A stretch of DNA of 64,000 nt, taken from NCBI RefSeq assembly GCF_000153205.1, contig NZ_CH672427.1, positions 1,148,667-1,212,666 on the forward strand, given 5' to 3'. A program made the translations under genes and the position numbers. The stretch is from Nitrococcus mobilis Nb-231. Its GTDB lineage: Bacteria; Pseudomonadota; Gammaproteobacteria; Nitrococcales; Nitrococcaceae. Each line of letters starts with the position of its first letter. Position 1 is the first letter of the stretch. This document shows, piece by piece, positions 5,706 to 51,338 of this stretch. The notes under the pieces were generated by a model that did not search any database, had not been told where the DNA came from, and saw nothing but the letters and a program-made list of their open reading frames with translations.

Positions 5706-6992
5706 ATGCTAAGACACCGGATCCTGCTCCATTACGCCGAGGTTGCACTCAAAGGCCATAACCGTCGCGAGTTCGAGCTGCAACTGCGACGCAATATTAA
5801 ACACCGACTGCTGCGCCGCGGTGTGCATTGGCCGGTGCAGCGCGGCCACAATCGGATCACGGTGCACATTCCAAATGCCCCGTGTGCCGATGTCTTTGAA
5901 ATCGCCGCCATGCTGCGGGGTGTGGCTGGCATCGCCTCGGCCGCACCCGCTGCGTTCCTCCCTCGTGCGGATCTGCGCTGGCCCAGCGAGTCGCCGCAAC
6001 TGCATCGGATCGAGGAAGTCGTGGTGGGCATGGCCCACGAAAACTGGCGAGCACAAGCGAGCTTTGCAGTCCGAGTTAATCGGGGCGACAAGGGGTTTCC
6101 TTTACGATCCGATGAGCTCGCCCGCCGTTTGGGCGCCACCATCATCGAACACACAAGCTGGTCGCGCGTGGATCTGTCACACCCGGATCAGCGTTTCTAC
6201 GTCGATATCTACCCCGAGGGGGTATATCTCTATGACGTGCGCTATCGGGGACTGGGCGGACTGCCAGTGTTCACCGCTGGCTCCGTATTGAGCCTGCTCT
6301 CAGGCGGCATTGACTCCCCTGTGGCGGCCTTCCTAATGGCCAAGCGAGGTTGCCGAGTGAATTTCCTGCATATGACAGCGACGCACCTCGCTGCCGACCG
6401 GCTGCGCGAGAACCTGGTCAGCCGTATTGCCAAGCGGCTGAGCATCTATACTCTGCGCTCGCGACTGTTCTTGGTACCCTATACGCATTTCGACTTAGCG
6501 CTGATCGGCCAACCACCCTCCGGCTTCGAAATGATCCTCTTCCGCCGTTTTATAGCACGCCTCGGAACCCGCCTTGTCGAACGCCATGGTGGACAAGCGC
6601 TCGTGGTCGGCGATAGCCTTGGGCAAGTCGCCTCACAAACATTGGAAAATATAGTCAGTCACTCGCAGGCAACGGCCCTGCCGATTCTGCGCCCCTTAAT
6701 CGGGATGGACAAACAAGAGATCGTCGAGCGCGCGCGGACAATCGGCACTTACGAACTATCGACCGAGCCTTACAAGGACTGCTGTGCTCTGCTCAGTCGA
6801 CACCCACGCACCAAATCCCATCCGGAGCCGCTGCAACGGCTTGAAAGGCGATTGTTCCCAAACTACGAAGCGTTGCTCGAGCACACCCTCGCCGAGATGC
6901 GGGTTTTAACGTTCGACGCGGGCGAGATGCTCGAGACGGATTCGAGCTGCGCCCGCGGCAAGCTCGGCTTGAGCCGCTCGCAACCAATCTGA
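5706..6992 (+). CDS. thiI: tRNA 4-thiouridine synthase / thiamine thiazole sulfur carrier ThiI, without rhodanese domain
   Basis: A 428-residue protein with an N-terminal ferredoxin-like/THUMP region (about 1-190) and a PP-loop adenylation domain with SGGIDSP at residues 199-205. The acceptor-type cysteine region EPYKDCCALLSRHP is present. It adenylates U8 of tRNA for 4-thiouridine formation and in some bacteria supports thiazole synthesis. The C-terminal rhodanese domain of E. coli ThiI is absent, so it resembles the shorter Bacillus-type enzyme. The frame is open upstream to 5526, but the family start aligns with MLRHRILLHYAEVALKGHNR at 5706; no clear Shine-Dalgarno sequence is seen. A TATAAT hexamer at 5607-5612 is a possible -10 element without a good -35. 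Confidence 0.88.
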   Translation: MLRHRILLHYAEVALKGHNRREFELQLRRNIKHRLLRRGVHWPVQRGHNRITVHIPNAPCADVFEIAAMLRGVAGIASAAPAAFLPRADLRWPSESPQLHRIEEVVVGMAHENWRAQASFAVRVNRGDKGFPLRSDELARRLGATIIEHTSWSRVDLSHPDQRFYVDIYPEGVYLYDVRYRGLGGLPVFTAGSVLSLLSGGIDSPVAAFLMAKRGCRVNFLHMTATHLAADRLRENLVSRIAKRLSIYTLRSRLFLVPYTHFDLALIGQPPSGFEMILFRRFIARLGTRLVERHGGQALVVGDSLGQVASQTLENIVSHSQATALPILRPLIGMDKQEIVERARTIGTYELSTEPYKDCCALLSRHPRTKSHPEPLQRLERRLFPNYEALLEHTLAEMRVLTFDAGEMLETDSSCARGKLGLSRSQPI

Positions 6993-7017
6993 TCTGGGTG
7001 GAAGCCTCGAATAAGCC

Positions 7018-7401
7018 TCAGTGCCAGCCCTTCCATACACCCCAGACCAGCAGCAGCCACGCCAGCAGAAACAACGCACCGCCAAACGGCGTCACGGCAC
7101 CCAGCCAGCGCACCTCGGTCAAAACCAATCCGTAGAGGCTACCGGAGAAGAGCGCGATTCCGATCAGCATCAACCAGCCGGCCCCGACCACAACGGCAAC
7201 CGCTGCTGTCAGATGGGACAGCACCAGCCCAACCGCAAGCAGACCCAAGGCATGGACAAGCTGATACTCCACGCCCGTATGCCAGACTTCCAACATTTCG
7301 AGCGGCACCCGCGCACGCAGGCCATGAGCGCCAAAGGCGCCCAAAGCCACGCCGAGGAAAAGATTCAGGCCACCGAGGATCACGAACAGCTTGCCATGCA
7401 T
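7018..7401 (-). CDS. DUF423 family small membrane protein (YgdD-like)
   Basis: A 127-residue integral membrane protein with four predicted transmembrane helices. The N-terminus (LGGLNLFLGVALGAFGAHGL) and the central YQLVHALGLLAVG segment are the conserved parts of the DUF423 family (E. coli YgdD). Biochemical function is unknown; the protein should be in the inner membrane. It is convergent with thiI, 25 bp apart, and no other gene shares its strand nearby, so it is probably monocistronic. Confidence 0.88.
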   Translation of the reverse strand: MHGKLFVILGGLNLFLGVALGAFGAHGLRARVPLEMLEVWHTGVEYQLVHALGLLAVGLVLSHLTAAVAVVVGAGWLMLIGIALFSGSLYGLVLTEVRWLGAVTPFGGALFLLAWLLLVWGVWKGWH

Positions 7402-7907
7402 GAAACCGTTCCGTTTTGCAGTAATACGCTTAATCCTTTGTACGCCCCATCCTCCGCGGCCGTCTGTTCACTTCAACCGCCGAGCCTGGGGCTGGTCCAC
7501 AAATACCATTTTAACGGTACGCTGTTGCTTCGGCCCATTCCACCATATCAGCGCGCGCTTGATGTTACCTGTCATGCCTCACGCGCGCCAGCGGATTCGA
7601 ATGACGCGTGTCAACCATTATTAATGGCCAAAGCACGAGCAATGGTAAATACAATGACATGCATTGGCATCCACCGTATCCTAATCTGAAGCATATAGTG
7701 CTTCGGTGCTTTTTATGCACATCGCCGATGAGATCACCTGAAGACCCCACTCGCGACTTGAACGGGAGGGTAGCAGCGGGTTTGCGACGCGCTACCAAAA
7801 CCGCAAAAAGGCCTCAGCCATAAACTCAGCCATAAACAGGGCAGTCAGCCGCGGGCCGTGCCGTTGCGAAGGGGGTAGAGCGCCCCGCATTTCGATAGAA
7901 CGACGCC
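7402..7907. other. 506-bp intergenic region upstream of the sensor kinase gene
   Basis: No protein-coding gene could be supported here. The stretch separates divergent transcription units (DUF423 gene and the quorum-sensing kinase). It contains a terminator-like hairpin at 7697-7714 and an imperfect hairpin with arms GGTAGC (7769-7774) and GCTACC (7791-7796). The length is unusual for this gene-dense window and could hold a regulatory leader or a small RNA, but no promoter was clear enough to call. Confidence 0.5.
7697..7714 (+). terminator. UUCG-tetraloop hairpin followed by T run
   Basis: AGTGC, loop TTCG, then GTGCT form a short five-pair stem (two of the pairs are G-U) with a stable UUCG tetraloop, followed immediately by TTTT. 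Outer bases GCATA/TATGC can extend the pairing. It looks like a small intrinsic terminator on the plus strand, yet no plus-strand gene ends nearby, so it would end a short non-coding transcript or attenuate the leader of the kinase gene. Confidence 0.35.
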
Positions 7908-9233
7908 ATGCCGAATAGAATTCATTGTGGGTGGAATCGACTGCTTGCACGGCTGCGCTTGGCCCTGGCACAAGGGGTGCGCCAATCGGAGCCGAACCTC
8001 TTTCCCATCGGCATAATCGGCGTTGTGGGGTTTCCAGCGTACTATTTCATCTGGCACGACTGGTTTCCGCAGCCCTACGAGAACCTCGGCTTACGGCTGA
8101 TCGGAGCGGGGATATTCTTACCCTACTTATTCCTGCCGCGTTGGCCGAAGCGCTGGCGCCCCTTGCTGGGAGTGTACTGGTTTTTCACCATGCTCTATTC
8201 CCTGCCGTTTTTTTTCACCTTTATGCTGCTGAAAAACGGCATGTCAGATGTATGGCATACATCGACCATGGCTGCGATGATCCTGCTGGTGCTGCTGGTA
8301 CAAGAATGGCTGCTGCTGAGCCTGTTGTTTGCAACCGGTACAACACTCGCTTGGCTTGCCCACATCGCAACCGGCGGCCAGCTCGTCGTTCCGCCCGACT
8401 ATTTAGCACAGCTGCCGATCTATTTGTTCGTAATGGTTACCGGCAGCATCGTCAATTATAAAGCCGCTTTAGTGAGCCAAGAGCGGTTGGACGCCATGTT
8501 CGCTGTCAGCCGCAACATCGCTCACGAGCTGCGCACCCCGCTGCTGGGCATCCGCAGCGGAGTAGGCGGCCTGAGGCGCTACCTGCCACACCTGCTCGAA
8601 GCGTACGAACTCGCTCGGAAAGAGGGCCTGTGCGTGCCTGCAATGCGTCAAGGACACCAACACGCCCTCAAATCCGTACTGGATCGCATCGAAAACGAGA
8701 CCAATTACTCGAATACGATAATCGACATGTTATTGATAAACGCTGGGCGACACCAACTGGATGCTTCAGAGTACACTGTTACACACATCAGCGAGTGTGT
8801 GGCGATCGCGCTAAAGCGCTACCCGTTTCGATCCCAAACAGAGCGCGAGCGGATCCGCTGGCGCCGGGGAGCAGATTTCGCATTCCAAGGCTCACCATTG
8901 CTCATGGTCCATGTCATTTTTAATTTATTACGCAACGCCTTGCATTTCATCGCGGAGGCCGGGCGCGGGGAAGTCGTAATCTGGACCGAACGCAACGGAA
9001 CGGACGGCACCTTGCATGTCCTGGATACCGGTACCGGGATCCGGCCGGAGGTGTTGCCTTATATTTATAATCGCTTCTATTCCTCGCGCACGATAGACCA
9101 GGGCGCCGGCATCGGGCTGGCATTCTGTAAAATGGTTGTAGGAAGCTTCGGCGGCTCTATCCATTGCAAGAGCGAATACGGCAAATACACCGAGTTCATG
9201 CTGACTTTTCCAGGAGTGGGCCATCATGGATGA
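7908..9233 (+). CDS. lqsS: CqsS/LqsS-type alpha-hydroxyketone autoinducer sensor histidine kinase
   Basis: A 441-residue membrane kinase. Residues about 30-185 hold six hydrophobic segments; EPNL and GFPAYYFIW followed by WFPQPYENLGLR match the Vibrio cholerae CqsS sensor region very closely. The kinase core follows: H box AHELRTPL (His206), N box FNLLRNALHF, G1 DTGTGI, G2 GAGIGLAFCK. In CqsS numbering, ligand-pocket residues W104 and S107 are kept (W116, S119), whereas C170 corresponds to Val182. The receiver domain fused to CqsS is absent, as in Legionella LqsS. It overlaps the response-regulator gene by 8 nt and faces the synthase gene. Sensing of a CAI-1/LAI-1-like ketone is inferred from homology. 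Confidence 0.9.
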   Translation: MPNRIHCGWNRLLARLRLALAQGVRQSEPNLFPIGIIGVVGFPAYYFIWHDWFPQPYENLGLRLIGAGIFLPYLFLPRWPKRWRPLLGVYWFFTMLYSLPFFFTFMLLKNGMSDVWHTSTMAAMILLVLLVQEWLLLSLLFATGTTLAWLAHIATGGQLVVPPDYLAQLPIYLFVMVTGSIVNYKAALVSQERLDAMFAVSRNIAHELRTPLLGIRSGVGGLRRYLPHLLEAYELARKEGLCVPAMRQGHQHALKSVLDRIENETNYSNTIIDMLLINAGRHQLDASEYTVTHISECVAIALKRYPFRSQTERERIRWRRGADFAFQGSPLLMVHVIFNLLRNALHFIAEAGRGEVVIWTERNGTDGTLHVLDTGTGIRPEVLPYIYNRFYSSRTIDQGAGIGLAFCKMVVGSFGGSIHCKSEYGKYTEFMLTFPGVGHHG

Positions 9234-10254
9234 TAAGTCAATCCCCCCCTACCGCTTTCCCTCGACCGTGCTTGTTATCGACGATGACGCAACCTTCCTC
9301 ACCAATCTCAGTTTGGAGCTCGACGAACGGCTGGCCTATCGGTTATTCGACTCGCCACTGGCGGCTCTGGAGCATCTGCAGCACTGCGAAAGCAGCGTAC
9401 GCCCTTACCAACGCTGCTTCTACCAGCACCGGGAGGCCGTCGGCTGGCCGATGCGCAATCATTTCCTGCGCGTGGATATCGCGGCGCTGGAAGAGGCGGT
9501 AACCGACCCCAAACGCTTCTCCGAGGTCTCCGTGGTGATCGTTGACTACGCCATGCCCGGTATGGACGGCTTGGAATTTTGCCGACGCATTCGCAATCCC
9601 CACATCAAAAAAATCCTCTTCACAGGAGTCGGCGACGAAAAAGTCGCCGTGGAGGGCTTCAACCAGGGACTGATCGATCGGTTCATTCGAAAAAGCTGGC
9701 AAAATGTAGCGGATGATCTAAACCAAAGCATTAAAGAGTTGCAGGCGCAGCATTTTCAGGATGCCTCCCGGTTGCTCCAACAGTCGATCGACGGCGAGGA
9801 TGCCGCATTTCTCAAAGATCCCGTTTTCATTTACCACTTCGAACGCCTATGCGAGGAATACCGGCTGATCGAGCATTACTACGTCGCCGAGCCCAGCGGC
9901 TTCTTACTGATCACCGACGATGGCCGGCCGTATCGACTGGTCGTGCTCACTGAGGAGGATCTGCAGGTGCACCAGGAGATCATTCGCGACCAAGGCGGCC
10001 CCGCACCGTTGCTGGATAAACTCGCCAGCGGCAGCGCCGTGCCCTATTTCTGGCGCTCCGCAGGCTATTATCGCCCAGAATGCCTCGATTGGGAGGATTT
10101 CCTCTTTCCAGCCAAAATGCTGCACGGCGCGCGGCGCTACTATCTCGCGCTCATCGACGACCCCCCACTCTACCGGTGGCTCGGCTGGCGGATCGCGAGC
10201 TATCGCTCGTTTCTCGACGAATTGGATGCGACGCTGGCGCTGCCCCGCCTATGA
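9226..10254 (+). CDS. lqsR: LqsR-like response regulator with unusual receiver and uncharacterised output domain
   Basis: A 342-residue protein. The receiver has the acidic pair in VLVIDDD (about 16-21), phospho-acceptor Asp107 in VDYAMPGMDG, the Thr of ILFTGVGDE and the Lys of RFIRKS. About 50 residues are inserted between the first strand/helix and the phospho-acceptor strand, so the receiver is longer than usual. Residues about 165-342 form an output region with no helix-turn-helix, GGDEF, EAL or HD-GYP motif, matching the LqsR plan. The gene overlaps the kinase gene by 8 nt, so the pair is surely coexpressed; phosphotransfer from kinase His206 to Asp107 is the expected step. The assignment to LqsR rests on architecture and context. 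Confidence 0.8.
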   Translation: MDDKSIPPYRFPSTVLVIDDDATFLTNLSLELDERLAYRLFDSPLAALEHLQHCESSVRPYQRCFYQHREAVGWPMRNHFLRVDIAALEEAVTDPKRFSEVSVVIVDYAMPGMDGLEFCRRIRNPHIKKILFTGVGDEKVAVEGFNQGLIDRFIRKSWQNVADDLNQSIKELQAQHFQDASRLLQQSIDGEDAAFLKDPVFIYHFERLCEEYRLIEHYYVAEPSGFLLITDDGRPYRLVVLTEEDLQVHQEIIRDQGGPAPLLDKLASGSAVPYFWRSAGYYRPECLDWEDFLFPAKMLHGARRYYLALIDDPPLYRWLGWRIASYRSFLDELDATLALPRL

Positions 10255-10313
10255 CAGGTTGCCCATAAACGGCATTTCGCCCCCGTCGCATCCGTTCATC
10301 CATCAAAACACCC

Positions 10314-11570
10314 TTACCGGCAGAGAACGGGGGTAGAATGTGGCTTGCGCCGAGTGGATGCCCAACTCACCAGATCCACTTCCTCACGGATGGCCGCGCA
10401 GACGTTCACGATTCGCCGCAGTTGAGCACCACAGAGCGCTGCATTCACGGACAAGCGAATCAGCGATCGATTGGTCGGCGTCGCCGGAGCGCAAAACACC
10501 GAGCCAAAGATCCCGCGTGACTCTAATGCGTCACGCAACACGATGGTTTGAGGCTCCGGCCCGGACTCAAGGCCAATAATTTGCGAATCACTTTCCAAAT
10601 TGTAGCCGAGTCGACTGAGCTCATCGCGTAAATAACGCGCGTTGCGATACAGCCGCTGACGACGCCATTCTTCCTGACGTATCACCCGCAAAGCGGTGTG
10701 CAATCCTGCAATCTCATGGGGCAGTAGCGTAGAGCTGAAAATCGCCGGACGGGCCGTGCATTTGAAGTACTCGGCAAAACGCGCCGAACAGGTAATCAGC
10801 CCGGCACGGCCGGCGAAGGCCTTAGCGAGGCTCGCAGTGCGAAAATGGACCTGATCGGCCAAACCGCAAGCGGCTACCAACCCCACCCCATCCGGCCCAT
10901 GGGTACCCAAGGAGTGCGACTCATCCACCACCAACACGCAACCGTGGCGCAATCCGATTTCTGTGAGTGCCACCAGCGGCGCTATATTGCCGGTCGTACT
11001 GTAGATCGAATCCACCACTACGATGCCCGGCCCGTAACGACGAATCTGCCGCTCCAAATGATCAACGTCATTATGCCGAAACGGCCGAGCAGTGGCACCG
11101 GCGCACAAAATACCTTGATGCAACGACATGTGGGCGAACATGTCCACGTACACGGGCACGGAAGCATCGGCGATGGCCTGGATCAGGCCGACGTTGGCAC
11201 ACCAACCGGACTGACACAGCACCGTGGCCTCACTGCCGAGATAATCGGCAAACTCGGCTTCCAGCCGCGGCTGCGGCTCGCTCCCCTGCAGAAAGACCGC
11301 CGACATGAGCAGGCCGTTGCCGGCCTGCTCGATCGCTTCGGCCTGAGCACGCAGAATAGCAGGATGCCCAGCAATCGATAGGTAATCATTGCTCTGGAGC
11401 ACTATTGAGTCGGTACTCGGTTGCCGACCGTGCATGATATGCCCGCCGTTCCAAGTTTTCTCAACCCGCTCACGGTAGTATGTCGCTACGCGATTTTTAA
11501 GAAAGGCGGGCTCCCATGAGGGCCCTTCCCACTCCACCCCACCCCGAAACTCTGCATAAGCCGTCTGCAT
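10314..11570 (-). CDS. cqsA: CqsA/LqsA-type alpha-hydroxyketone autoinducer synthase
   Basis: A 418-residue PLP enzyme of the alpha-oxoamine synthase family. It would condense an acyl-CoA with an amino acid-derived substrate to give an aminoketone precursor of an alpha-hydroxyketone signal. Diagnostic CqsA blocks are present: ILQSNDYL-like VLQSNDYLSIAGHP, SGWCANVGL, YVDMFAHMSL, VVVDSIYST, VVDESHSLGTHGP (Asp216, His219) and TASLAKAFAGRAG with PLP lysine Lys250. These separate it from glycine C-acetyltransferase and 8-amino-7-oxononanoate synthase. ATG 11570 has GGAG upstream with suitable spacing. The gene is convergent with the kinase/regulator pair, 59 bp apart. Acyl chain length cannot be predicted. 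Confidence 0.93.
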   Translation of the reverse strand: MQTAYAEFRGGVEWEGPSWEPAFLKNRVATYYRERVEKTWNGGHIMHGRQPSTDSIVLQSNDYLSIAGHPAILRAQAEAIEQAGNGLLMSAVFLQGSEPQPRLEAEFADYLGSEATVLCQSGWCANVGLIQAIADASVPVYVDMFAHMSLHQGILCAGATARPFRHNDVDHLERQIRRYGPGIVVVDSIYSTTGNIAPLVALTEIGLRHGCVLVVDESHSLGTHGPDGVGLVAACGLADQVHFRTASLAKAFAGRAGLITCSARFAEYFKCTARPAIFSSTLLPHEIAGLHTALRVIRQEEWRRQRLYRNARYLRDELSRLGYNLESDSQIIGLESGPEPQTIVLRDALESRGIFGSVFCAPATPTNRSLIRLSVNAALCGAQLRRIVNVCAAIREEVDLVSWASTRRKPHSTPVLCR

Positions 11571-12048
11571 AATAATTGTCTCCGTTTGGATACCTCAGGC
11601 CGCTCCGCGGCCACATTGAACAAAACAGGACCATTGCTGGCGACAATGCAGGACGATATTAAAGATACGAATGTTTAACGTTCTTATGTTTGCGCGCTCT
11701 GAGCGCTAGTGCGCGCGCTTCGCAACCGAATGACCCAGACACCTAGGTGGGCGTAGTGATGGTCGGGGCCTACCTGCATCCCCTGGTTTTGGGCTATACG
11801 GGACCTGCGCGCTTTTCTTTTATTGGGTCTTACAGGCTATGCCATCGATAAGCCTTGGATAGTGACTTACACCAAATCCTCGGCATTGGACGCATTTCAT
11901 AAGGGAAGGGCGCAGACGAGGAAATATCGGCTGGCGGTAGCCGCTTAGGAAAGCAAGGCTGGACAAAAGCCGCGGCATGGGGAAGGATTTTGTATGGAGG
12001 TCCCACTCGCCGAACGGGAGAGGGTGAGATGTTCTGGGTCGCGCCCCT
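11571..12048. other. 478-bp intergenic region upstream of the autoinducer synthase gene
   Basis: No supported gene. The part next to the synthase gene must hold its promoter; an imperfect dyad of two 9-nt arms (ATACGAATG and CGTTCTTAT, 7 of 9 complementary, 5-nt spacer) lies at 11665-11687, about 95 bp upstream of the start codon. The rest, toward sppA, has short open frames without codon structure or recognisable similarity. Confidence 0.5.
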
Positions 12049-13893
12049 TTACCGGATTCCCCCCAAATCCGGCCAACAGGGGCAATAGGCATAAGCGGCT
12101 TTGGGGTCCTGCAGCCAGGCGAGCGGCAGCGTTTCATCAGGCAACGGTATCAACCACACAAGCCAATCCGAAATGGGCCATGGCTTAGCATCAAGCCGTT
12201 GGGCCAACGCGACGAAACGCTGCAGCACGCGCTCACGCAGGCTTTGGGTTGTCGGTATGGGCACCAGCATGAATCGGTTCTTTGGTAGTCCCGCGAGCGC
12301 GGCAGCGGCCTCGGCCGCCTGACCCAACCCACCCAAATGGTCCACCAAACCCAAACGCTTGGCGTCCCGTCCGCTCCACACTCGGCCCTGAGCGATCCGA
12401 TCCACGGCCTCCACGCTCATGCCACGTGCCTGAGCAACCCGGTGGATAAACCGCTGATAGCCCTGCTCGATAACCAGCTGCACCAGGCGCGCGCCCTCCG
12501 GACTCAACGGCCGGTCCGCTCGCAGCGCACCGGTAAGGGCGTGGGTGCCCACCCCATCGGGGTGGATACCCAGCTTTTCCAGTGTGGTCTGAACATTGGG
12601 CAGCAAACCGAAGATACCGATGGAACCGGTCAATGTGCTGGCCTGAGCCCAGATCTGATTAGCATTCATCGCGGCCCAGTATCCGCCTGATGCAGCCACC
12701 GCCGACATGGATACCACCACCGGTTTGCCGGCCTGGCGGGTCGCGGCCACCTCACGGCGAACCACCTCGCTTGCGGTTGCGCTACCGCCCGGGCTGTTCA
12801 CACGGAGGATCAATGCGGCGATGCCGTGATCCCGCCGCGCGTCACGAATCTGCTGGGCGATGGTGTCGCCCCCCACGATTCCGGGTCGGCTCTCGCCGTC
12901 GGCGATGGGGCCCTCCATTGTGATCAAACCCACCTTGCCGGGCTGATCGTCCGCCTGCAATCCACCACTCGCCTGCAGATAATCCGGGTTGTTGATCTGC
13001 CGAAAGCCCCCGGTTTGCAAGTCCTCTCCCACAATACTCGCCAATTCGGCGCGCAGCTCGGCCGGAGTAACCAACTTATCGACCAACCCAGCCGAGCGGG
13101 CCAAAGCCGCCGTATCGCCATCGTGCGCCGCTAACTCGACAGGCAAATTATCGATGTAGCGATCGATCGCACTCGGTGGCAAACCACGCGAATGGGCCAC
13201 ATCGCTCTTGTAGACATCCCACAGCGTGTGCAACCAGATCAGATTTTCCCGACGGGCCTGCGGCGACATGTCATTGCGCATAAACGGCTCCACCGCCGCC
13301 TTGTACTGGCCCACGCGGAACACATGGACCTTCACCCCCAGCTCATCGAGAGCATCCCTGAAGTAATGTTGGTAGACGCCGAATCCTTGCAGCAACACCG
13401 CACCCAGGGGATCCAGATAGACTTTGTCCGCCAAAGCGGCCAGATAATACTGGAGCTGGGTATAGGATTGGGCATAGGCGATCACCTTCTTGCCGCTGGC
13501 TCGAAAATCGCGTATCGCGCCACCCAATTCTTGCAGCTGGGCCATACCGGCCTGCTGCAACTCATCGAGCTGCAACACGGCCAGAGTGATGCGCGAATCA
13601 CTCGCACCGCGGCGCAACGCAACCAGCAAGTCACGCAGCGGGGTTTGTTGCGGCTTCTCTTCCATGAACCGTCTGAGCAACACGCCCGGCTCGAACTCGC
13701 TGTGCTCCACTACGCTGCCCTGCGGCGCCCAAACCAATGCGACGTTGTCGCCCACCTGAGGCGCTGGCGGACCTTTGATGGCGAAGAACACGATCGCCAG
13801 GAACAATAAGACGAACAGCACGATCAGGGCACGCCATGCCACAACGATCAGGTGCCAAAGAGTGGTAAAAATCCGCTTAACCATGGCGGCCAT
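12049..13893 (-). CDS. sppA: Signal peptide peptidase SppA, long (67 kDa) form
   Basis: A 614-residue inner-membrane serine protease that degrades cleaved signal peptides. An N-terminal anchor covers about residues 12-40 after the basic start. Two tandem ClpP-like folds follow: the N-terminal one supplies catalytic Lys198 (YKAAVEPF), the C-terminal one catalytic Ser402 (AASGGYW). The VNSPGGSATASEV segment is also conserved. Length fits the E. coli long form (618 residues). ATG 13893 has a GGGAGAG ribosome-binding site. Flanks are non-coding on both sides, so it is probably monocistronic. Confidence 0.95.
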   Translation of the reverse strand: MAAMVKRIFTTLWHLIVVAWRALIVLFVLLFLAIVFFAIKGPPAPQVGDNVALVWAPQGSVVEHSEFEPGVLLRRFMEEKPQQTPLRDLLVALRRGASDSRITLAVLQLDELQQAGMAQLQELGGAIRDFRASGKKVIAYAQSYTQLQYYLAALADKVYLDPLGAVLLQGFGVYQHYFRDALDELGVKVHVFRVGQYKAAVEPFMRNDMSPQARRENLIWLHTLWDVYKSDVAHSRGLPPSAIDRYIDNLPVELAAHDGDTAALARSAGLVDKLVTPAELRAELASIVGEDLQTGGFRQINNPDYLQASGGLQADDQPGKVGLITMEGPIADGESRPGIVGGDTIAQQIRDARRDHGIAALILRVNSPGGSATASEVVRREVAATRQAGKPVVVSMSAVAASGGYWAAMNANQIWAQASTLTGSIGIFGLLPNVQTTLEKLGIHPDGVGTHALTGALRADRPLSPEGARLVQLVIEQGYQRFIHRVAQARGMSVEAVDRIAQGRVWSGRDAKRLGLVDHLGGLGQAAEAAAALAGLPKNRFMLVPIPTTQSLRERVLQRFVALAQRLDAKPWPISDWLVWLIPLPDETLPLAWLQDPKAAYAYCPCWPDLGGIR

Positions 13894-14457
13894 CGTTTTC
13901 TCTCCCGTTGCCAGGCCCGATGGCCCCGCGCTGGAAAATCCCGCTCAGCATAGCTTAATTGTTAAAATGCCAGTCCGCTGACCTGAGCTACGTATAAAGA
14001 CCCGCTGCGAACCCGACTCAAAAGATCAAGCGCGGATGCCGCACGCAGCCCCTCGCCATGCCCTCGGAAAATGGTGGACATGAGCCGTTCGCGCTAAAGG
14101 GAGCACTCCTCCCGATCCAGCCGCTTGCCGAACATCACACCCTAGCGTTGCAATACCATCCAGGCAATAGGCTCCGGAGTCTCAAGCTCCGCCATCATAC
14201 GGTGATGCTGCACGTGCGCAGCGGCCATTTCATCCATAAACACATATTAAGAGTCGTTTGTGTTCCTAGCCCGGAAGTTTCATGAATCCGCGCGATGATT
14301 AATGATTGTGCAGCTTGTGGATTCACAGGAGTTTTTGTGAAGGAGCGGCGTATCGGTGATTACGCCCGACTGAGCAAAATCTTCTGTGGATTCAAGGGGC
14401 AAGCGAGGGCGTGTGCGATTCATAAAATTTTCAGGCTGATATGTTTTAACTTGCAAG

Positions 14458-14490
14458 CAACCCTGCCAGAAAGGTTTTCTGGCAGGGTTG
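14458..14490. repeat. Perfect 15-bp inverted repeat with 3-nt loop
   Basis: Arms CAACCCTGCCAGAAA (14458-14472) and TTTCTGGCAGGGTTG (14476-14490) are exactly complementary and separated by GGT. Neither strand has a T run directly after the stem, so it is not a standard terminator; it may be an IS-derived palindrome or a dispersed repeat of this genome. Confidence 0.7.
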
Positions 14491-14757
14491 TTGACGAAAA
14501 CATTAGACATCTTGTTTGAAGTTGCGCAGCAAGTTCAAACATAGGGTCTAGACTTGCGGCAGAACGCAAGTGCAAACCGAGGCCATCACACTCGACGAGA
14601 TGGGAATACCTGGTAGCCGGGACCGGCAAAGCTCGGCGACTCATCAGGCGTACCCGAATGTTTGAATCCAAGCCGGTAGCAAAAGACCCATGATCCAGCG
14701 CACCGTCTCGCCCATCGCCCTTGCCCCACCAGCCGCCTGCGCTGCCCACGGCTTCGG

Positions 14758-14975
14758 TCATAGCCTGATGCACCCGCAAAAGGCCGGGGCGGCACAGTGC
14801 ATGGCGAGTTTCATCGTAGCCGCGATATGGCGGAATTGTTTGAATTGATTAAAGGCCTGTTCAATGAGATGACAGGCTGAGTAGTGCTGACGATCCACGT
14901 CACGCACCGCCGCACGGTTGGATCGAGGGAGACGAGCACATCTGCACCGTGGGCTTCGTTGACGATCACAGTGCC
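14758..14975 (-). pseudogene. IS5-family-type transposase remnant
   Basis: Two fragments in different frames resemble the C-terminal part of IS5/IS4-type DDE transposases. The first (about 14907-14975) reads like the conserved DKAYDAD block in decayed form (NEAHGADVL); the second (14761-14883) carries YSACHLIEQAFNQFKQFRHIA, the family's Y-(2)R-(3)E-(6)K-like region, then a decayed tail. A frameshift and a gap of about 25 residues separate them. N-terminal parts and inverted-repeat ends were not found, so it is a non-functional relic. Confidence 0.5.
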
Positions 14976-15078
14976 GAGTTGGGACGTTTGATCGAACCCG
15001 GCTCGACACGGGCGGGGGTGCGCGTGCGTAATCAGCCGCTTAACCGCGGGATGCACCCCCGAGGGCAAAGGGCTAAGG

Positions 15079-15104
15079 AAAAAGTGGCCGGCACGCGGCC
15101 GGCC
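15079..15104 (-). terminator. Intrinsic terminator downstream of astC
   Basis: On the minus strand, GGCCGGC and GCCGGCC form a 7-bp all-GC stem with loop CGCGT, followed by AC and five T. It lies about 160 nt after the astC stop codon in the direction of transcription and is the best candidate for the end of the astD-astB-astC transcript. Confidence 0.6.
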
Positions 15105-15265
15105 ATGGGATTGCCCCACACCATCGAAAAGGAGGTTGGATAAAAAGCTCAATTGTAAATTAGCGCCGACGCCGGGTTGGATTCCGTGCAGCACATCACT
15201 GTCTTGGGGGTTATCGGTCGCAAGTTCGGTGACGAGCTTAGACCCATTCCGCCAGGTAGAGAATC

Positions 15266-50977: not shown

Positions 50978-51338
50978 GACGGGAAGCCGGCCTATAAGCC
51001 GGGTTCTGTCGAAGGCAGCCATTCCTCTGGAGTACGCGTCACCGCGCACCTCAAGCGACCTACCCGAAAGCCGTGCGGGCCACACGCTCGCTTCCCTATT
51101 TGGTCTTGCTCCAGGTGGGGTTTACCGTGCCACGGAGTGTTGCCACCCGCGCGGTGCGCTCTTACCGCACCTTTTCACCCTTGCCTGAGCCCGTTGGTCG
51201 GGCCATCGGCGGTCTGTTTTCTGCGGCACTTTCCGTCGGCTCACGCCGCCCAGGCGTTACCTGGCACCTCGCCCTACGGAGCCCGGACTTTCCTCTGCAC
51301 CGTTAACGACACAGCGACTGCCCAGCCAACTTCCCGTC
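50978..51338 (-). ncRNA. rnpB: RNase P RNA (bacterial type A)
   Basis: The minus strand carries the conserved core: near the 5' end GAGGAAAGTCCGGGCTCC, then GTGCCAGGTAACGCCTGGG, then AGGGTGAAA-type sequence (AAGGGTGAAAAGG), and near the 3' end GACAGAACCCGGCTTATAG. The ends pair as P1 (GACGGGAAGTTGGC with GCCGGCTTCCCGTC), which sets the limits within a few bases. It is the catalytic part of the tRNA 5'-processing enzyme. Location between rsmI and mraZ matches Pseudomonas. Confidence 0.95.

Follow-up and report, generated by a model that had tools for sequence, protein, structure and literature searches.

We conclude that positions 7908-11570 of a 64,000-nucleotide stretch of the Nitrococcus mobilis Nb-231 genome (the window) very probably encode an lqs-type alpha-hydroxyketone (AHK) quorum-sensing cassette, an assignment made by sequence comparison, and that what is new lies outside these coordinates, in the loss of lqsS, the move of lqsA, and the persistence of lqsR among relatives. 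Kinase, regulator, and synthase adjoin as the initial annotation had them, coordinates and strands agree with the ORF list, and the two plus-strand genes do converge on a synthase encoded on the minus strand:

7402-7907, no strand: non-coding sequence upstream of the kinase, 506 bp, likely promoter, carrying a CAATG-N5-CATTG dyad
7908-9233, plus strand: LqsS-type sensor histidine kinase, 441 aa, with a membrane sensor (about residues 1-190), HisKA with H206, and HATPase (Pfam)
9226-9233, plus strand: overlap of kinase stop and regulator start, 8 nt, ATGGATGA (read from the sequence)
9226-10254, plus strand: LqsR-family response regulator, 342 aa, phospho-acceptor D107 (full-length 6sy9 match)
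10255-10313, no strand: 59-bp intergenic space between the convergent transcription units (ORF map, three-genome comparison)
10314-11570, minus strand: CqsA/LqsA-type AHK autoinducer synthase, 418 aa, PLP lysine K250 (NF005526, 3hqt, tree)
11571-12048, no strand: non-coding sequence upstream of the synthase, 478 bp, likely promoter

We take the three cassette ORFs to be real genes because they match known families and recur in two genomes with low dN/dS. Specifically, i) the three genes, together with an identical 8-nt overlap, are found in two other Nitrococcus-type genomes (L001 and L002); ii) the encoded proteins are 89-96% identical to those of these two genomes; and iii) dN/dS of the three genes among N. 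mobilis and two near relatives is 0.03-0.13. The overlap has the length originally given for it, and probably couples translation of the regulator to that of the kinase.

The regulator, at first described as LqsR-like, matches the "Response regulator" structure 6sy9 along its whole length (residues 4-336, E 3.8e-80) and conserves the receiver aspartate, D107; this is a match to LqsR, since the matched stretch of 6sy9 is 89% identical to LqsR of L. shakespearei. Assignment of the kinase sensor to the CqsS/LqsS type also held up: homology extends across the sensor, H206 is present, and in a tree the kinase groups with LqsS-type kinases. In an alignment with Vibrio CqsS and Legionella-type LqsS (V. 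cholerae CqsS numbering taken from PMC3376566/PMC3285556), W116 corresponds to VcW104, S119 to VcS107, F174 to VcF162, and V182 to VcC170, and the sensor keeps the FPQPYENL motif as well as W116, S119, and F174. In the hydropathy profile, about 5-6 peaks lie between residues 31 and 189, against the six transmembrane helices expected of this type of sensor. Pfam recognizes HisKA and HATPase domains only, with no fused receiver in the kinase, which ends after HATPase.

The synthase scores 598.9 bits against the curated AHK synthase model NF005526 (cut-off 428) and 245 bits against the BioF model, far below the BioF cut-off; the Kbl model is also matched at a lower score. It matches the V. cholerae CqsA structure 3hqt with an E value of 2e-117, and the catalytic residues are kept, K250, D216, H219, and H147 all aligning with CqsA. 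The initial annotation would have fallen had the synthase branched with Kbl or BioF enzymes; in our tree all AHK synthases, the Nitrococcus one included, stand apart (SH-aLRT 100) from an outgroup of genome matches below the AHK cut-off, which are of the BioF/Kbl family by homology and not individually named.

Among the closest characterized systems is lqsA-lqsR-hdeD-lqsS of Legionella, with which the cassette shares a separate receiver-less LqsS, an LqsR-family regulator aligning over its full length, an LqsA-type synthase, and convergence on the synthase; it differs in having an 8-nt overlap rather than hdeD between regulator and kinase, and no second AHK kinase (LqsT) was found in the Nitrococcus genome. 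The same three genes occur in jqsA-jqsS-jqsR of Janthinobacterium and in other environmental lqs-like clusters (PMC3566124, PMC3376566). Vibrio cqsA/cqsS is similar in synthase family, sensor domain, and convergent genes, but the CqsS proteins of the Vibrio loci read are hybrids 681-690 aa long, compared with the receiver-less 441 aa and separate LqsR of Nitrococcus. The portions of the literature on lqs-like clusters available to us name N. mobilis in a review as a carrier of such a cluster, and in those portions we found no description of the 8-nt overlap or of the losses in sister species (PMC3566124, PMC3376566).

Two Nitrococcus congeners (G001 and G003) have lost lqsS, leaving a decaying relic, and their lqsA has moved elsewhere; the cassette is therefore dispensable in the genus. 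In both species lqsR and lqsA are still open and under purifying selection, which is relaxed for lqsR; dN/dS between the two is 0.28 for lqsR (vs 0.03-0.05) and 0.22 for lqsA (vs 0.10-0.13). The relic and the raised ratios for both genes would fit a signaling cassette on its way out in Nitrococcus, with no take-over of LqsR by another kinase, and we regard this as a serious possibility falling somewhat short of an even chance. Against it stand the purifying selection on lqsR and lqsA in the species lacking lqsS, the constraint on all three genes in N. mobilis and its two near relatives, and a family relative, G007, which keeps lqsR (54% identity) and in which we found neither an AHK synthase above the cut-off nor an LqsS sensor match. 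Loss of lqsS with retention of lqsR hints instead that LqsR was taken over by a second signaling system.

A phcB-like gene is present in both lqsS-less congeners and in G007, and the N. mobilis operon that we read is phcBSRQ-like. Its gene order is the same as in three loci, two from Cupriavidus-type genomes (L159 and L161) and one from another genus of the same family (L160), to which B is 44-46%, the C-terminal half of S 40-43%, R 31-34%, and the receiver region of Q 49-56% identical. The REC-kinase core of the PhcR-like protein, which is encoded at G000:C1:131728-132912, is 42% identical to LqsS and 26-28% identical to Cupriavidus PhcR, and the AU test does not reject placing it with Cupriavidus PhcR in one clade (p-AU 0.16). 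A separate membrane kinase of 475 aa in a Cupriavidus-type genome (L179) has a core 36% identical to LqsS and 40% identical to the PhcR-like core; because this core is similar, the LqsS/PhcR-like kinase core is a wider subfamily. The identities suggest a domain swap between LqsS and PhcR, but with a common PhcR clade not rejected and the L179 core similar, we do not regard a swap as proven. Ralstonia and Cupriavidus phcBSRQ systems resemble the Nitrococcus operon in gene order and likewise have an LqsR/PhcX homolog, PhcX being a member of the LqsR family (PMC10653808); they differ in that Nitrococcus LqsR still lies beside lqsA and lqsS, and that the PhcR-like core is nearer LqsS. We propose, only tentatively and at rather less than even confidence, that LqsR is the meeting point of the AHK cassette and the phcBSRQ-like system in Nitrococcus and the family relative, and that in G001, G003, and G007, which have lost or do not have LqsS, the Phc-like system alone runs LqsR, a parallel to Ralstonia PhcX that arose in a different lineage.

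In the lqsS-less species, LqsR could also take its input from a sensor kinase of the LqsT type encoded at an unlinked locus; Legionella has such an orphan AHK kinase, LqsT, which converges on LqsR (PMC5289986). We consider this unlikely: no second gene with an AHK sensor domain was found in five Nitrococcus genomes or in G007, and the nearest kinase core in the lqsS-less species is the PhcR-like one. Barring a sensor that has diverged beyond detection, the LqsT-like candidate is refuted.

The initial annotation saw a hybrid Vibrio/Legionella layout, which we have dropped on layout counts: kinase and regulator converge on the synthase in 16 of 24 distinct loci with a separate kinase and regulator, Legionella included, making this the commonest arrangement of the family; the Vibrio hybrid CqsS gene likewise converges on cqsA; and several relatives have kinase/regulator overlaps of 4 nt. 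Nor do the comparisons support sensor and synthase sequences closer to Vibrio, as had been suggested. The whole kinase is 41-43% identical to Legionella-type LqsS vs 31-33% to Vibrio CqsS, and over the sensor domain alone the two are level (34-37% for Legionella-type vs 36-40% for Vibrio); for the synthase, identity is 51% to CqsA of V. cholerae and 44% to that of V. campbellii, two Legionella-type sequences giving 48% and 45%, and AU tests reject grouping with neither Vibrio (p 0.65) nor Legionella (p 0.46). In trees, all three proteins are nearest to their counterparts in other Nitrococcus (the kinase to those of genomes keeping lqsS) and then to Halorhodospira (SH-aLRT 95-99%), and these common nearest relatives imply that the cassette was inherited as one unit; by AU tests, the backbone branches place it firmly with neither Vibrio nor Legionella. 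A true hybrid, recombined from cqsA/cqsS of Vibrio type and lqsR of Legionella type, is most improbable: the evenly matched sensor domain and the equivalents of Vibrio W104 and S107 would suit it, but the nearest relatives common to all three proteins, the greater likeness of the whole kinase to LqsS, and the usual layout argue against it. Least credible, and in practice refuted by the sequence comparisons, is the reading of the synthase as a primary-metabolism enzyme of the BioF/Kbl type, with an unrelated two-component pair beside it. The common fold family and the lower-scoring BioF and Kbl matches would allow this, but the far higher AHK score, the outgroup split, and the constant association of the synthase with LqsS/LqsR homologs across loci all speak against it.

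The two non-coding flanks of about 500 bp are where the initial annotation placed them, but their contrast with tightly packed surroundings is incomplete, as 13894-15265 also holds only short ORFs; the two of these that were scanned belong to no Pfam family. Special conservation of the flanks was ruled out, because they diverge faster than the genes (three-genome identity 55-59% vs 82-88% for the three cassette genes). No Rfam match was obtained on 6900-12300 at E values up to 1, which argues against a regulatory RNA in the flanks, and promoter- or terminator-like sites were no more frequent there than in shuffled sequences. The flanks are ordinary; the dyad (7652-7666) falls within the best-conserved 30-bp block on the kinase side.

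A phage or defense link was also rejected: no PADLOC family was matched, viral contigs, when scanned for the regulator by degenerate pattern, gave one receiver match (35%), and synthase matches in "phage" records are 26-32% identical, the few gene-named ones being BioF or Kbl.

By analogy with characterized relatives, the synthase would form an AHK by condensing an acyl-CoA and a substrate of the SAM or aminobutyrate type. The chain-length residue of the AHK sensor has been described (PMC3285556), and a non-aromatic residue there, V182, points to a tail of roughly C10 or more, not C8. Binding of the AHK by the LqsS membrane domain would alter autophosphorylation at H206, and phosphoryl flow between H206 and LqsR D107 would set LqsR dimerization and output, much as LqsS autophosphorylation, LqsR D108, and dimerization are described for the Legionella homologs (PMC5289986). 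With less certainty, the phcBSRQ-like system, encoded at another place in the genome, may feed LqsR as well. Lacking a receiver on its kinase, the cassette encodes no Vibrio-style relay.

Among relatives we also observed one fusion of an AHK sensor with a cyclase and another of an AHK synthase with an MMPL transporter; the former would open to testing whether a nucleotidyl cyclase is naturally under AHK control, and the latter whether AHKs have a dedicated export route.

The sequence points to a nitrite oxidizer with a complete AHK system, yet the cassette on its own is a small addition, many environmental Proteobacteria, including N. mobilis, being known to carry AHK clusters. What one family displays is sensor decay, synthase move, and regulator persistence beside a Phc-like system: a natural series for studying the rewiring of an orphaned LqsR-family regulator, a problem that has also been posed with respect to PhcX of Ralstonia (PMC10653808).

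We consider it well supported that the window carries an ordinary alpha-hydroxyketone (AHK) quorum-sensing cassette; what was observed are the genes present, their homology and layout, the conservation of catalytic and signalling residues, and constraint. The initial annotation, made from sequence alone, identified the genes correctly and over-read their layout. The three genes do stand together (cassette genes from ORF reading, neighbours from Pfam):

7018-7401, DUF423 gene, neighbour of the cassette
7402-7907, non-coding flank, 506 bp
7908-9233, plus strand, kinase gene (lqsS), 441 aa
9226-10254, plus strand, regulator gene (lqsR), 342 aa
10314-11570, minus strand, synthase gene (lqsA), 418 aa
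11571-12048, non-coding flank, 478 bp
12049-13893, peptidase S49 gene, neighbour of the cassette

The 8-nt overlap first noted is real (ATGGATGA, in which the kinase gene stops and the regulator gene starts), as are the non-coding flanks of about 500 bp, which are 55-59% identical across three genomes versus 82-88% for the cassette's three genes. Neither flank holds a known RNA by Rfam search or an excess of promoter- or terminator-like sites by a site scan against shuffles; a conserved dyad, CAATG-N5-CATTG, at 7652-7666 has 1 match in the window versus 0.08 expected. The window's sole Rfam match is a bacterial RNase P class A RNA (50979-51333, minus strand), and about 1.4 kb beside the peptidase S49 gene (13894-15265) contains short ORFs only, two of which were scanned and matched no Pfam family.

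Placement of the synthase among Kbl or BioF enzymes is contradicted by i) NCBIfam's equivalog model of AHK-type autoinducer synthases, on which it scores 598.9 bits (cut-off 428 bits) versus 245 for BioF; and ii) a 72-row tree placing it within the CqsA/LqsA family, with an SH-aLRT 100 split from outgroup rows that are genome matches scoring below the AHK cut-off and stand for the BioF/Kbl family as a group, not as individually named enzymes. Vibrio cholerae CqsA is the best solved relative, with which the PLP lysine K250, D216, H219, and H147 align. The nearest named record is an N. mobilis MAG (91% synthase identity), and seven of the genomes searched as relatives pass the AHK cut-off: those of five Nitrococcus, one of them the window's own, plus two from elsewhere in the order. 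Clusters of the lqsA/lqsS type had already been ascribed to N. mobilis, along with other bacteria, in a 2012 review (PMC3376566).

In the kinase, Pfam finds HisKA and HATPase domains and no receiver. As initially proposed, the N-terminal sensor is of the CqsS/LqsS type: it can be aligned with both and keeps W116, S119, and F174, equivalent to V. cholerae W104, S107, and F162 (numbering from PMC3376566 and PMC3285556); V182 occupies the position that governs chain length, where V. cholerae has C170 and V. harveyi F175 (PMC3376566, PMC3285556), and this non-aromatic residue suggests a longer acyl tail. The regulator matches PDB 6sy9 (residues 4 to 336, E 3.8e-80), which we take to be Legionella LqsR because the matched stretch is 89% identical to the L. 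shakespearei regulator; regulator D107 corresponds to LqsR D108. By analogy with Legionella (PMC5289986), LqsA would make an AHK; sensing by LqsS would alter kinase activity at H206; phosphoryl groups would be exchanged between LqsS and LqsR D107; and LqsR would then dimerise.

The layout, initially considered an unusual Vibrio/Legionella hybrid, is the usual one of the family. We compared synteny in 24 distinct loci in which a synthase accompanies a kinase and a regulator encoded separately, a tally that leans to relatives of the query because loci were fetched with the query sequence or a family model: i) in 16, kinase then regulator converge on the synthase, as in the window; L. shakespearei and another Legionella-type genome are among them, and the regulators are weak in two of the 16 (24-29% identity); ii) the tandem order kinase-regulator-synthase occurs in five and synthase-kinase-regulator in two, and one locus is divergent; iii) the regulator also converges in four further loci cut by contig ends; and iv) Vibrio-type hybrid kinases likewise converge on cqsA (L132, L135-L137, L145), whereas in the window a receiver-less kinase and separate regulator do so. 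Kinase and regulator overlap by 8 nt in L001 and L002 and by 4 nt in L009, L011, L138, L139, and L143.

The proposal that sensor and synthase lie closer to Vibrio is not supported. The synthase shares 51% identity with V. cholerae CqsA but 44% with V. campbellii, versus 48% with L. shakespearei and 45% with another Legionella-type sequence; the whole kinase shares 41-43% with Legionella-type LqsS versus 31-33% with Vibrio CqsS, and the sensor alone 34-37% versus 36-40%, overlapping ranges. AU tests reject neither a Vibrio nor a Legionella grouping. The nearest relatives are shared by all three proteins: first other Nitrococcus, then Halorhodospira (two congeners, having lost lqsS, are naturally missing from the kinase tree). 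This pattern favours joint inheritance over a mosaic.

Those two congeners (the MAGs G001 and G003, both 95% complete and 5-6% contaminated) have a relocated synthase (80%) downstream of a MASE8-GGDEF gene, and a regulator (82% and 79%) remaining beside DUF423 and thiI. Upstream of the intact lqsR lies just a decayed C-terminal kinase stretch in G001 and a shorter, frame-broken one in G003; a search for other genes with an LqsS sensor found none in either genome:

L099:3046-3695, decaying lqsS remnant
L100:5990-6440, decaying lqsS remnant

The MASE8-GGDEF genes upstream of the relocated synthases (L004:3045-4199, L101:2811-4010) encode diguanylate cyclases. The presence of lqsS relics argues against mere missing data. 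Between G001 and G003, lqsR has a dN/dS of 0.28 and lqsA one of 0.22, versus 0.03-0.05 and 0.10-0.13 among three lqsS-bearing genomes; by this measure selection is still purifying, but relaxed.

Neomarinimicrobiota MAGs encode proteins in which an AHK-type sensor (36-39% identical to that in the window) is joined to a class III adenylate/guanylate cyclase domain (L020:7204-8913, L023:7209-8927, L026:7209-8927, all minus strand; Pfam E 6.7e-8 in L020); the fusions converge on an AHK synthase and look like a natural counterpart of an engineered CqsS-cyclase chimera (PMC4821796). Six loci encode plus-strand proteins of about 1190 aa with a C-terminal AHK-type synthase:

L021:3637-7224
L024:3646-7209
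L025:3577-7170
L028:3616-7191
L031:3628-7209
L032:3607-7188

Each lies beside a second, stand-alone synthase, and both copies preserve the catalytic residues; the N-terminal MMPL transporter (Pfam-confirmed in L021 and L024) may couple synthesis with export. Divergent synthase-like proteins with catalytic residues preserved occur in L116 (5955-7163, minus strand, 38%), whose genome also has a normal AHK synthase, and L117 (5920-7149, plus strand, 34%).

The window's genome also carries a Phc-like system:

G000:C1:127727-134098 (= L102:3728-10099), phcB-S-R-Q-like operon: methyltransferase, hybrid kinase, REC-kinase, REC protein

Its order and homology are those of phcB-S-R-Q in L159-L161 (the genomes of L159 and L161 have AHK synthases that group with a named Cupriavidus; L160 is from another genus of the same family). 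The phc cluster has been reported from Betaproteobacteria (PMC10653808). The five Nitrococcus genomes searched all have a phcB-like gene, as does G007, another member of the family. G001-G004 and G007 also yielded PhcR- and PhcQ-like genes, although in G001 and G003, both fragmented MAGs, the operon was not seen on a single contig. The PhcR-like core of Nitrococcus shares 42% identity with LqsS versus 26-28% with Cupriavidus PhcR. In the tree it falls among LqsS-type cores, a kinase core type wider than LqsS (L179), but the AU test does not reject one clade with Cupriavidus PhcR (p-AU 0.16). Searches of G007 found no AHK synthase above the cut-off and no LqsS sensor; it has lqsR (54% identity), and its kinase nearest LqsS by far is PhcR-like (E 6e-67, against 1e-13 for the runner-up). 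In Ralstonia, the LqsR-family regulator PhcX is tied to Phc (PMC10653808). We speculate that LqsR may be shared between the AHK cassette and the Phc-like system.
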